Under the pieces are notes generated by a model, which worked only from the letters and a program-made list of their open reading frames with translations, was not told where the DNA came from and made no database searches. A DNA stretch of 54,178 bases. Origin: Candidatus Bathyarchaeota archaeon (GTDB taxonomy: Archaea > Thermoproteota > Bathyarchaeia > TCS64). Both the position numbers and the translations under genes were made by a program. The first letter of the stretch is position 1. Each line of letters begins with the position of its first letter. Positions 40,050-46,560 of the stretch are shown piece by piece. The stretch is taken from NCBI GenBank assembly GCA_016930055.1, contig JAFGHP010000019.1, positions 1-54,178 on the forward strand, in the 5' to 3' direction.

Positions 40050-40201
40050 ACGTCATAATACCCTTAGTATTTGCTTGATATCGAACGCAGATTTTAGATT
40101 ATTTAAAAGAGAATGGTAACTAAACGCGTCTATCTACCTAAAGTTGCCTCATCAACGTAAAAACGAAAGGTGGAGAATAATCGTATGGAGGGGAATCTGT
40201 A

Positions 40202-43200
40202 ATAGTATACATCAACAAAATTTTGATACGTAATTTTAAATCATTTAGTGGCCAAATTAAACTTAATTTTCAATCTGGATTTAATATTATTACAGGACCT
40301 AATGGTAGTGGGAAAAGCAACATAATTGACGCCATACAATTTGTTTTAGGTGAGTTAGCCTCTAAACGTATGAGAGTTCCTGATTTTGGTGGTTTAATCT
40401 ATGATGGTGCCGGAGAAACTGATATTGGGAAATCTCAAATTGCACAAGTTACAATATATTTTGATAATTCTGATAGAGGACTTGCATCAGATAGAAATCA
40501 AGTTAGTATAGGTAGAAAAGTAGATCGTCAAGGAAAAAGTGATTATTATCTTAATGGTAAAAAAACTTCAAGGAAGATTGTATTAGACTTATTACAATTA
40601 GCTGGAATTACCCCCGGTGGTTATAATATTGTTCAACAAGGTACCGCTACAAGACTAAGTGATTTAACTCCTTCTGAACGAATGCGTGCACTTGAAGACT
40701 TAATTGGTATTAAAGAATATGACGAAAAAAAATCTGAAGCTAAAATCCGATTATCTGAAGCTGAAAGAAAAATTGAGATCGCGTCAGCTAGAATTGATGA
40801 GGTTAGAAAAAGAGTATCAGAACTAGAACGTCAAAGAAATGATGCATTAAGATATAATCATCTTAATAGAGAAGAAAAAAGACTTACTGCGGTAAAATTA
40901 AGTTACCAAATAAATCAACTAGAAGAAAAAATTAGTGTAATAAATGAACAATTGAGAGAACGTCAAATCGAAGTAACTAAGTTAGAGGAAGAAAAAAAGC
41001 AACTCAGAGAAGAGCGAGAAATAGCTAGAAACAGAGTAGAAGAATTCAATAGAGAAGCTGCTGAGAGGGGTAACACAAAATTACCTATGTTAAAATCAGA
41101 TCTTGTTGGTAAAAAAACTTTAAGAGATAACATCAATAATAGATTGAAAGAAATCACTATACGGATAAGTTATTTAGAAAAAGCAATTTATGATAAACAA
41201 ATAGAATTAAACCAAACAGATGCTGAGATACTTGAGCGTAAAAAGGAACTTGATACCCTATCTCAAAATTATAAAGCTCTTACTAGTGAACTTGAATTAA
41301 AAAAAGAAGACCTTCAAAAAACTATAGATATTTTACAGAATTCAAGAAGCAAAACTTCTGAAAATCAAAAACAACTAGAAGACTTAACTGAACGTTTGAT
41401 ACCAATGCAAGAAACCCTCACTGGGCTTGAAATTGAAATCAATCTTCATAAAAGTACAAACTCAAACCTTGAAGAAAAAATTCATGAACAAGAAAACAAA
41501 AAAGAAGAATACGAAAAAACAACACAAAGTCTTAGAGAAAAACTTGATGAATTTGCTAATATAAAAGCTCAAGAAGCGGAAAATCTAGAAGAAATGCTTT
41601 CTAACCTGGAAAATCAAATTGATAGACAAAAAAGTCTAAGAAACACCATTGAAAATGCTAACTTATTAGCAAAACAAGCAGAGACAACTATAACGGAATT
41701 TTCAGCTAAAAGAGATTTATGGAAACAAATTGTTGTAGTAGAAAAAGCTCTAGAACGAATTAGAGAAATTGGTGAAGCAGGTGCCCTTGAGGGATATCAT
41801 GGACCTGTCAAATCCTTGATTAAAATTAATTCTACTTATCAAAGAGCAATTAATTCATCTGCTGAAGGTTGGATGAATGCCGTTGTTATTGATTACATTG
41901 ATGTGGTTACAAATTGTATCGATAGATTAAAAAAGACAAAACTTGGAATGACTAGATTTATTCCCCTTGATCATTTAAAGAAAAACGAGTCTTTACCTAA
42001 AATAAACGATGAACGTATTGTAGGACCCCTTCTTGATTTCATAAACTGTGATGAAATTTACTTGCCAGTTGCTGGAATGATTTGGGGTGACACTTATTTA
42101 GTTAAAGATTCTGATGGAGCCATCAAAGCTAATACATTAGGATATAGAGCAGTCACAATAGCAGGCGATATTTTTGAACCAAAAGGCGGAATCATGGGTG
42201 GTTATTATAGAAGACCTCCCGATTATTCAAAACTTGTACCCACAGAAGAATCAATAGATAGTCTATCTAAAACAATCAAGTCTTTAAGACAAAAACTTAA
42301 GACAAGAATGACAGACCTAAAAGCAAGCGGTGGTAATTTACGAGGATTCTCTGATTACATGGAGGAGTCTAAAAAACGTATTACAAGAATTGATTTAGAT
42401 GTGGCTGAAACAAATGAGAGACTAGTAAAATTAGAAAAAACGATTGTTACCGTAATTGATATAATTAATAAGTATAAGGGAGAGCAAGAAAGTAATTTTA
42501 ACTTAATCTTAACTCTAGAAGAACGTAAACAAAAGATTCAACAACAATTAGATGACGTTAAACAGGAAATTAATCTATTAAAAGAAATTAAACCATCCGA
42601 CTTAACCGATCTAGAAATTAAACAATCCAGTGTTCAAAACGAAATAATAAACCTACAGAATCAAATAAGAGATATAGAAAATTCTCAATCAGTACAAAAT
42701 GGATTTGTTAGTCGAGTTTTATCTATTAGGCTCGAAGAAGCTTCTGAGCAATTAAACAAGATGAAAAATGAAAAACAGAGTTTAGAACAGGAACATATAC
42801 AAGATCAAGAACAATTAGTGGAGATTGATAGGGAAATAGAAATTATTGAACTTGACCTCAACAGTTTAACTGATGAAGTCGAAGCCACCTCTAATGTTAT
42901 GGAGCAGCAACAAAAGACATTAAGAATTATTAATCAAAGAATGGAAGATCTTGAGCGTCGAAGAGAGGTTGAAGATAAAAGAATAAATCAAATAACTCTT
43001 GAAGTCGAACGATTAAAATTACAGGGAGAACAGAAATTAGATGAATTAGCGTTAAATGGTTTTGAAGATAAAATCAGTACTTTAGGGATTGAATTTGAAC
43101 TTATTGAATCAAGGATTCAACAAATAAAAACAGAAAGAAACAATATTGGAGCAATAAACCAACTAGCACTTGATCAATATAATGACTATATGTTAAATTA

Positions 43201-43756
43201 TAAAAACCAAAGCACAAGAATAAATGAACTAGAAGAAGAAAAATTAGGCATCCTCAAATTCATTGACGAAGTTGAGAGAGAAAAAACCGATCACTTCATG
43301 ACTGCGTTTAATGAAGTTTGTGAAAACTTCAGTACCATATTTGGTAAAATTACAGGTGGTGGAGACGGTCGACTTGAACTCCAGAAACCAGAGGATCCAT
43401 TTTCAGGTGGAGTAGATCTTTATCTACAATTCCCTGGTAAACCTATGCGTTTAGGAAGCGGAGCTTCTGGTGGAGAAAGATCAGTTGCAGCAATTGCTTA
43501 TCTATTAGCTATTCAAAAATTCTTAAGAGCACCCTTTTATGTTTTTGACGAGGTTGATGCTCACCTTGATGACCTAAATACTAGTCGATTAAGTGAGGTC
43601 CTGAAAGAAAGTGCTGTTGATGCTCAATTTTTAATGATTAGTTTGAAAGATGTTATGGTTCATAACGCAGATAGAATTTATGGAGTATTCTCTCAGGGTG
43701 GAAAAAGTAGGGTATTAGCTCTTCCAATGAAAAATAGGGTGGAAAGTGTAATTTGA
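40202..43756 (+). CDS. smc: Chromosome segregation ATPase SMC
   Basis: A full-length SMC of about 1,184 residues that forms the archaeal condensin with ScpA and ScpB. The N-terminal ABC half has Walker A in TGPNGSGKSNIIDAIQFVLG. Long coiled coils (about 165-490 and 680-1020) enclose a hinge (about 520-665; AGALEGYHGPVKSLIKIN, GGIMGGYYRRPP). The C-terminal signature and Walker B are GSGASGGERSVAAIAYLLA and PFYVFDEVDAHLDDLN. The conserved first strand (VYINKILIRNFKSF) begins upstream of the first standard start (TTG 40223). The only candidate at the right place is ATA at 40202, 8 nt after GGAGGGG, so I start there with caution. The stop overlaps scpA. Confidence 0.93.
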   Translation: MVYINKILIRNFKSFSGQIKLNFQSGFNIITGPNGSGKSNIIDAIQFVLGELASKRMRVPDFGGLIYDGAGETDIGKSQIAQVTIYFDNSDRGLASDRNQVSIGRKVDRQGKSDYYLNGKKTSRKIVLDLLQLAGITPGGYNIVQQGTATRLSDLTPSERMRALEDLIGIKEYDEKKSEAKIRLSEAERKIEIASARIDEVRKRVSELERQRNDALRYNHLNREEKRLTAVKLSYQINQLEEKISVINEQLRERQIEVTKLEEEKKQLREEREIARNRVEEFNREAAERGNTKLPMLKSDLVGKKTLRDNINNRLKEITIRISYLEKAIYDKQIELNQTDAEILERKKELDTLSQNYKALTSELELKKEDLQKTIDILQNSRSKTSENQKQLEDLTERLIPMQETLTGLEIEINLHKSTNSNLEEKIHEQENKKEEYEKTTQSLREKLDEFANIKAQEAENLEEMLSNLENQIDRQKSLRNTIENANLLAKQAETTITEFSAKRDLWKQIVVVEKALERIREIGEAGALEGYHGPVKSLIKINSTYQRAINSSAEGWMNAVVIDYIDVVTNCIDRLKKTKLGMTRFIPLDHLKKNESLPKINDERIVGPLLDFINCDEIYLPVAGMIWGDTYLVKDSDGAIKANTLGYRAVTIAGDIFEPKGGIMGGYYRRPPDYSKLVPTEESIDSLSKTIKSLRQKLKTRMTDLKASGGNLRGFSDYMEESKKRITRIDLDVAETNERLVKLEKTIVTVIDIINKYKGEQESNFNLILTLEERKQKIQQQLDDVKQEINLLKEIKPSDLTDLEIKQSSVQNEIINLQNQIRDIENSQSVQNGFVSRVLSIRLEEASEQLNKMKNEKQSLEQEHIQDQEQLVEIDREIEIIELDLNSLTDEVEATSNVMEQQQKTLRIINQRMEDLERRREVEDKRINQITLEVERLKLQGEQKLDELALNGFEDKISTLGIEFELIESRIQQIKTERNNIGAINQLALDQYNDYMLNYKNQSTRINELEEEKLGILKFIDEVEREKTDHFMTAFNEVCENFSTIFGKITGGGDGRLELQKPEDPFSGGVDLYLQFPGKPMRLGSGASGGERSVAAIAYLLAIQKFLRAPFYVFDEVDAHLDDLNTSRLSEVLKESAVDAQFLMISLKDVMVHNADRIYGVFSQGGKSRVLALPMKNRVESVI

Positions 43757-46021: not shown

Positions 46022-46176
46022 CTTGTTATCTCAAAACAAAACACATTATATGAGATATATGTATCCAAAAAAAGGGGGAAAAAAACAATTCTATTATAAA
46101 AAAACCATATGTTTTTTATACCTCGCTATTTTCTAAGGCTATAGCACATCTACTCTAATAAGAGGGGGAAAATAAA

Positions 46177-46560
46177 ACGGTCTGGCACAGTAATTTAGAA
46201 AAAAGAAAAAAAACAGGTGGAAAAAAAACACCCTATAGATCTAAACGTATCTACGATCAAGGAAGGCATCCTGTAGAGACTATTCTTGGAGAAACACAAG
46301 TAAAAGAAGTGAAAGGACTAAGTGGTATAGTAAAGAAGAAGCTAGTAAAGGCTGAATATGTTAATGTTTCAGACCCCGAAAGTGGTACTACCGAAAAACT
46401 AGAAATTTTAGATGTTGTAAGTAATCCCGCTAAAGCAGATTATAATCGTCGTGGAGTAATTACAAGAGGAACAATAATTAGAACCGAAAAAGGTTTAGCT
46501 ATAATAACTTCACGACCAGGACAAACCGAAGTTCTTAGTGCAGTTATTTATAATGAATAA
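46177..46560 (+). CDS. rps8e: Ribosomal protein S8e, apparently with an ACG start
   Basis: A 127-residue archaeal/eukaryotic ribosomal protein S8e. The frame from 46177 encodes the diagnostic N-terminus (VWHSNLEKRKKTGGKKTPYR, then SKRIYDQGRHPVETILG), the middle KAEYVNVSDPESGTTEKLEI and the C-terminus TRGTIIRTEKGLAIITSRPG with QTEVLSAVIYNE. The first ordinary start (GTG 46309) would remove the 44 most conserved residues. No ATG, GTG or TTG lies in frame between the stop at 46159 and 46309. ACG at 46177 stands exactly where Met is expected (M-V-W-H) and is preceded by GAGGGGG at 9 nt. Either ACG is used or the base is a sequencing or assembly error. SRP19 and gar1 follow. Confidence 0.92.
   Translation, partial: TVWHSNLEKRKKTGGKKTPYRSKRIYDQGRHPVETILGETQVKEVKGLSGIVKKKLVKAEYVNVSDPESGTTEKLEILDVVSNPAKADYNRRGVITRGTIIRTEKGLAIITSRPGQTEVLSAVIYNE

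Follow-up and report, generated by a model that had tools for sequence, protein, structure and literature searches.

Results

The S8e reading frame and its start codon

In the window, by which we mean the whole stretch of 54,178 nucleotides that was analysed, the gene for ribosomal protein S8e (eS8) lies on the forward strand, as do all other features of the window given below. Read from the ACG codon at 46177..46179, its coding sequence covers positions 46177..46560, stop included, and encodes a protein of 127 amino acids. The frame is closed 5 codons 5' of this ACG by an in-frame TAA (46159..46161), after which it reads GAG GGG GAA AAT AAA ACG (46177) GTC TGG CAC. A Shine-Dalgarno (SD)-like sequence GAGGGGG, found by direct reading at 46162..46168, lies 8 nt before the ACG. 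Neither ATG, GTG nor TTG occurs in frame between the TAA at 46159-46161 and the GTG at 46309..46311, and from 46112 to 46216 these codons are absent in any frame. The first-pass annotation had placed the conserved S8e N-terminus in frame 5' of the first canonical start codon, had seen no such codon back to the stop at 46159 and had described the GAGGGGG as well spaced; sequence, coordinates and the measured distance agree with this. It had also pointed out that a gene caller restricted to standard starts would lose 44 residues, which is indeed the consequence of starting at GTG 46309, the first canonical codon.

Translated from the ACG, the protein matches PF01201 with 116 bits (E 1.8e-33) over profile positions 3-132 of 133, passing the curated cut-off of 30.2 bits at near full length, whereas a start at GTG 46309 lowers the score to 74.6 bits, a loss of 41 bits. 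Alignments to solved archaeal S8e chains begin at query residue 2-8, in support of the N-terminus encoded upstream of the GTG. It is the single S8e match in the 94% complete assembly of this genome, and a second intact S8e copy was looked for in that assembly and not found. The ACG is one base from AUG and its SD spacing is normal. As the chance of 44 codons without ATG, GTG or TTG amounts to about 0.31 at the codon frequency inside the SMC gene discussed below, and such a stretch is therefore not rare, the missing canonical codons are statistically weak and the weight of the argument rests on homology and on the sister species.

Upstream of the gene, a TATA-like sequence TTTTTTATA (46112..46120) was spotted by eye; it is a possible promoter, in which case the leader would measure about 30 nt. 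The upstream region also contains GGCTATAGCA (46137..46146). The sequence GCTATAGCA, whose core GCTATAGC forms a palindrome, recurs in the leader or promoter region of S8e in the present genome and in two relatives, G002 and G003; in these relatives it is positioned 25-28 nt 5' of the S8e start. An Rfam search of the S8e leader gave no match.

The aligned S8e codon across Bathyarchaeia

The genome of the window, referred to as G000 and derived from an uncultured archaeon that its named relatives place in the Bathyarchaeia, was compared with relatives from this class, to which the other G numbers refer. G004 (VGJH01000033.1, Candidatus Bathyarchaeota, K_DeepCast_250m) is an independent metagenome-assembled genome (MAG) of another species in the same genus, and the comparison with sister genomes that had been suggested at the first pass yields ACG at its aligned S8e codon. 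The leader reads GGAGG AAAATAAA ACG GTC TGG CAT, with codon, SD spacing and frame as in G000; the contig of G004 ends 13 nt 5' of the ACG, where the readable leader stops. In G002 and G003, which belong to the same genus, the aligned codon is ATG, preceded by the SD sequence GGAGG at equal spacing. ACG 46177 occupies the conserved initiator position. ATG or TTG was found as S8e start in 45/45 other Bathyarchaeia read, G002 and G003 counted in; within the order it stands at the aligned codon, and in the rest of the class it precedes this position by one codon (M-S-V-W). ACG is the second S8e codon, after ATG or TTG, in the distant relatives G052, G078 and G082; since the codon before the ACG is AAA in both G000 and G004, taking the ACG as a second codon restores no canonical start there. 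Among the genomes read, the S8e ACG was observed in the G000/G004 branch only, and S8e was not found in searches of the G001 and G005 assemblies.

The S8e proteins of G000 and G004 are 82% identical (dN 0.118, dS 1.33, dN/dS about 0.09), and as synonymous sites are near saturation the shared ACG is not a matter of recent identity. For codons 2-44 the values are dN 0.072 and dS 0.90: the codons that a start at GTG 46309 would drop are under purifying selection. This bears directly on the view that S8e translation begins at that GTG and that the 44 codons upstream are untranslated. It is the codon that a standard gene caller chooses, but the codons that it leaves out encode conserved S8e sequence, no SD sequence lies at a suitable distance before it, and the next canonical codon of G004 is found elsewhere. 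We therefore reject GTG 46309 as the real start and attach next to no probability to it.

A probable non-AUG start in a second gene, SMC

The SMC gene of the same window, whose non-AUG start had been missed at the first pass, covers positions 40202..43756 when read from ATA and encodes 1184 amino acids (PF02463). The ATA at 40202..40204, assigned as start codon by aligned start comparison, opens the sequence ATA GTA TAC ATC AAC AAA and is preceded at 8 nt by the SD sequence GGAGGGG (40187..40193). The PF02463 score is 201.6 bits from the ATA and 198.4 bits from the TTG at 40223.

SMC starts were surveyed in 30 genomes, 5 in the genus and 25 outside it. The aligned codon is ATG, GTG or TTG in 25/25 genomes outside the genus; within it, G000 and G004 have ATA and G001, G002 and G003 have ACG, all 5 behind an SD sequence. 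The first 25 SMC codons of G001, G002 and G004 contain no canonical start codon; of the other two genomes, codon 8 is TTG in G000 (the TTG at 40223, without SD) and codon 7 is ATG in G003. In a maximum-likelihood tree of the N-terminal part of SMC, the five genomes with a non-AUG start form one clade (support 100/99) that requires one change, so that the use of a non-AUG start by SMC probably predates the separation of the species in this genus.

The first-pass annotation had offered two explanations for the S8e ACG, a rare non-AUG start or a T-to-C error. The second would imply that a sequencing, consensus or assembly error hides a true ATG at 46177; the data are from a MAG, MAGs contain consensus errors and one base would restore ATG. 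Such an error would have to account for the same S8e ACG in another species, assembled independently, and for an aligned SMC start that is ACG in three assemblies and ATA in two. Taken together these observations effectively exclude a T-to-C error, to which we assign a negligible probability, and leave the rare non-AUG start as the best remaining reading. An ACG common to the sister S8e genes, along with ACG or ATA at SMC in each of the 5 species of the genus that were readable, looks like real and inherited use of unusual start codons in the genus rather than a sequencing slip.

Directly before SMC lies an out-of-frame mini-ORF, ATG GAG GGG AAT CTG TAA (40185..40202), the stop of which touches the ATA. 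A mini-ORF of the type ATG GAG GGx followed by a stop that overlaps the SMC ATA is present in G000 (TAATA) and G004 (ATAG), possibly representing a termination-reinitiation arrangement; it is not kept in the ACG species G001, G002 and G003. One may ask whether the starts are reached by another route, be it a frameshift, reinitiation after an out-of-frame mini-ORF or the splicing of an exon located farther upstream. In favour of this one could cite the mini-ORF stop touching the ATA and a conserved overlapping leader ORF at TrpB2 in the family (see below). At S8e, however, the region 46112-46216 is free of ATG, GTG and TTG in any frame, the gene upstream is divergent and no ORF leads into the start, and at SMC the arrangement is not conserved where the start is ACG. 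Because S8e has no upstream ORF, mini-ORF reinitiation is possible for SMC of G000 and G004 but not for S8e, and we judge such routes very improbable as a whole.

Frequency of near-cognate starts

About 430 kb of G000 was sampled, and start positions were transferred from relatives in which a canonical start is backed by an SD sequence. ATG, GTG or TTG is kept in about 96 genes, and three near-cognate cases survive inspection, namely S8e (ACG), SMC (ATA) and AOR (CTG), or roughly 3%. The AOR gene, presumably aldehyde:ferredoxin-oxidoreductase-like from our own reading of the sequence, has CTG in G000 vs TTG or ATG in 13 relatives (G004, G007 and 11 more), and the distance from upstream stop to start codon is 15 nt in G000, G004 and G007. 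Scans for near-cognate starts on the basis of an SD sequence only yielded numerous spurious hits in every genome, the controls among them; given this noise only alignment-supported cases were retained.

The variety of these codons is relevant to a further explanation, in which C-to-U RNA editing would turn ACG into AUG before translation. Land-plant chloroplasts convert ACG to AUG by C-to-U editing (PMC9845219), the precedents being ndhD, psbL and rpl2. A context AAAACGGT is common to S8e and to SMC of G002. The AUA of SMC in two species and the CUG of AOR are not convertible to AUG by C-to-U changes, which leaves part of the set unexplained by editing, and to our knowledge no mRNA C-to-U editing has been described in archaea; we hold this explanation to be quite unlikely.

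The initiation machinery

The initiator tRNA of G000 (C23:67042-67116) has the anticodon CAU, an A1-U72 pair and a GC-rich anticodon stem; an altered initiator tRNA with a CGU anticodon was not seen in this genome. Introns are present in several tRNA genes of G000 (Tyr, Leu-UAA, one Met-CAU and Arg-UCG). The initiation factor aIF1 (SUI1) was found in G000, G001, G002, G003 and G005, which rules out its loss as an explanation; it was not found in the G004 assembly, which is 82% complete. Many genomes of the family, including G000, G002 and G004, possess two aIF1A genes (e.g. G000:C68:54273-54458 and G000:C10:10302-10490).

Loop 1 of aIF1 reads KWSK in the 4 genus members read vs KWGK or RWGK in the other members of the order that were read, and Gly also occupies this position in M. 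jannaschii and in a second archaeal PDB chain. By motif, the Gly-to-Ser position falls between the equivalents of P. abyssi Y32 and K34, residues that bind the 30S subunit and mRNA, and aIF1 of Sulfolobus discriminates against non-canonical starts (PMC6237735). The link between the loop 1 change and near-cognate starts is a correlation only: G041, G051 and G058 are likewise without the Gly, and SMC of G041 starts with ATG.

Discussion

Proposed initiation at the ACG

We consider it likely that S8e is made from ACG 46177 by SD-driven initiation at a near-cognate codon with the ordinary initiator. The GAGGGGG 8 nt upstream would position the 30S subunit at the ACG, where the ordinary Met-tRNA (CAU) would initiate despite a second-position mismatch; with AUA the mismatch would fall on the third position and with CUG on the first. 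From the sequence comparison we infer that ribosomes start at the S8e ACG in vivo with Met inserted, and the N-terminus of the protein would most likely still be Met. Near-cognate starts (ACG, AUA, CUG) would then be fixed in a few percent of the conserved genes of the genus, the essential S8e and SMC among them, and be made tolerable by a reduced start-codon stringency that is perhaps linked to loop 1 of aIF1.

In E. coli reporters, ACG supports 0.1-1.5% of the expression obtained with ATG (PMC6925171). For a ribosomal protein needed in stoichiometric amounts so low an efficiency would be awkward, which suggests that initiation is more permissive in this lineage or that the leader compensates. 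The presence of aIF1, the discriminating factor, and the canonical starts of most genes (about 96 mapped) count against near-cognate initiation. A more far-reaching form of the proposal holds that the genus has a relaxed start set, in which ACG, AUA and CUG stand beside AUG, GUG and UUG, fixed in essential genes before speciation and perhaps by way of aIF1 loop 1; this we put forward tentatively, as conceivable but somewhat short of probable. We know of no described archaeon with a choice of start codons as wide as the set proposed here.

Relation to known systems

Both bacteria and eukaryotes are known to use near-cognate starts. The present case resembles infC of E. coli (AUU) and of Streptomyces (AUC) in that an essential translation gene carries a conserved near-cognate start behind an SD sequence; it differs in that infC is bacterial, is changed at position 3 and has a demonstrated feedback, while here the genes are archaeal, the codon is ACG (changed at position 2) or AUA, and a feedback would be hypothetical. 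The GUC of Streptomyces sigR is likewise a rare non-canonical start that related species have conserved and that gene callers overlook, although sigR, unlike S8e and SMC, encodes a bacterial regulatory sigma factor under control of IF3. The chloroplast genes ndhD, rpl2 and psbL share a genomic ACG start with S8e, and again a ribosomal protein gene is among them, but their ACG is edited to AUG in the mRNA by a plant system, and the genus also has AUA and CUG.

Control of the infC and sigR start codons by IF3 is established in bacteria (PMC5472188), and the archaeal non-AUG starts might by analogy be regulatory, with low or condition-dependent synthesis and aIF1 in an IF3-like role. Apart from the precedents at infC AUU and sigR GUC, such regulation would fit the genus-specific Gly-to-Ser change in loop 1 of aIF1, which adjoins the residues binding 30S and mRNA in P. 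abyssi (PMC6237735). The own start of aIF1 is a normal ATG in the genus, where read, and the loop 1 Gly is missing from G041, G051 and G058 as well, including the genome in which SMC starts with ATG. Regulation of this kind, which would refine near-cognate initiation at the ACG and is not exclusive of it, seems rather unlikely to us.

In its SD at 8 nt, its normal initiator tRNA and the presence of aIF1 and aIF1A, the proposed initiation resembles canonical SD-led initiation in archaea; its start codon, in contrast, lies beyond the three described as usable, those given in a review of initiation in archaea being AUG, GUG and UUG (PMC7531240). In the open-access literature we found no archaeal housekeeping gene reported to have a conserved ACG or AUA start. 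Archaeal starts are generally assumed to be AUG, GUG or UUG, and conserved ACG and AUA starts would mean that initiation is less strict. If this is true, S8e and SMC would be natural substrates for testing the control of start codons by aIF1, which is shared with eukaryotes, and in genomes of this kind gene callers would truncate essential proteins or place their starts wrongly.

Further candidate starts and the TrpB2 leaders

Several other loci possibly use near-cognate starts as judged from their sequence: a GAF-domain gene with ATC (L129), a lipoate-ligase gene with TTA or ATA (L120/L160), an amidohydrolase gene with ATA (L133), an ABC-transporter gene (ACG, L193) and a reductase gene (CTG, L186) of G007, and the Nop5 gene of G004 with ACG (L165). 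The leader of this Nop5/56-like gene (L165 10151-10166), GGAGGGAAATAAA ACG GTT, is almost the same as the S8e leader; the gene reads GGAGG GAAATAAA ACG GTT, and in-frame ATGs occur farther upstream, without SD.

In several genera of the family the N-terminus of TrpB2 is without ATG, GTG or TTG. Loci from G004, G005, G007, G020, G016, G011, G014, G021 and G023 were compared, and in most of them the TrpB2 start is overlapped by a short ORF that has an SD sequence before it and is read in the -1 frame; an Rfam search of the TrpB2 leaders gave no match. In G007 this ORF reads ATG AGT GTG TAT CAC TCG GAC TGG ACA GGA AGA TCC TCC TGA. It carries one Trp codon within the likely CUG start, and its TCCTCC could pair with its own GGAGG, so that the leader ORF may represent a Trp leader or attenuator, or else a -1 frameshift.
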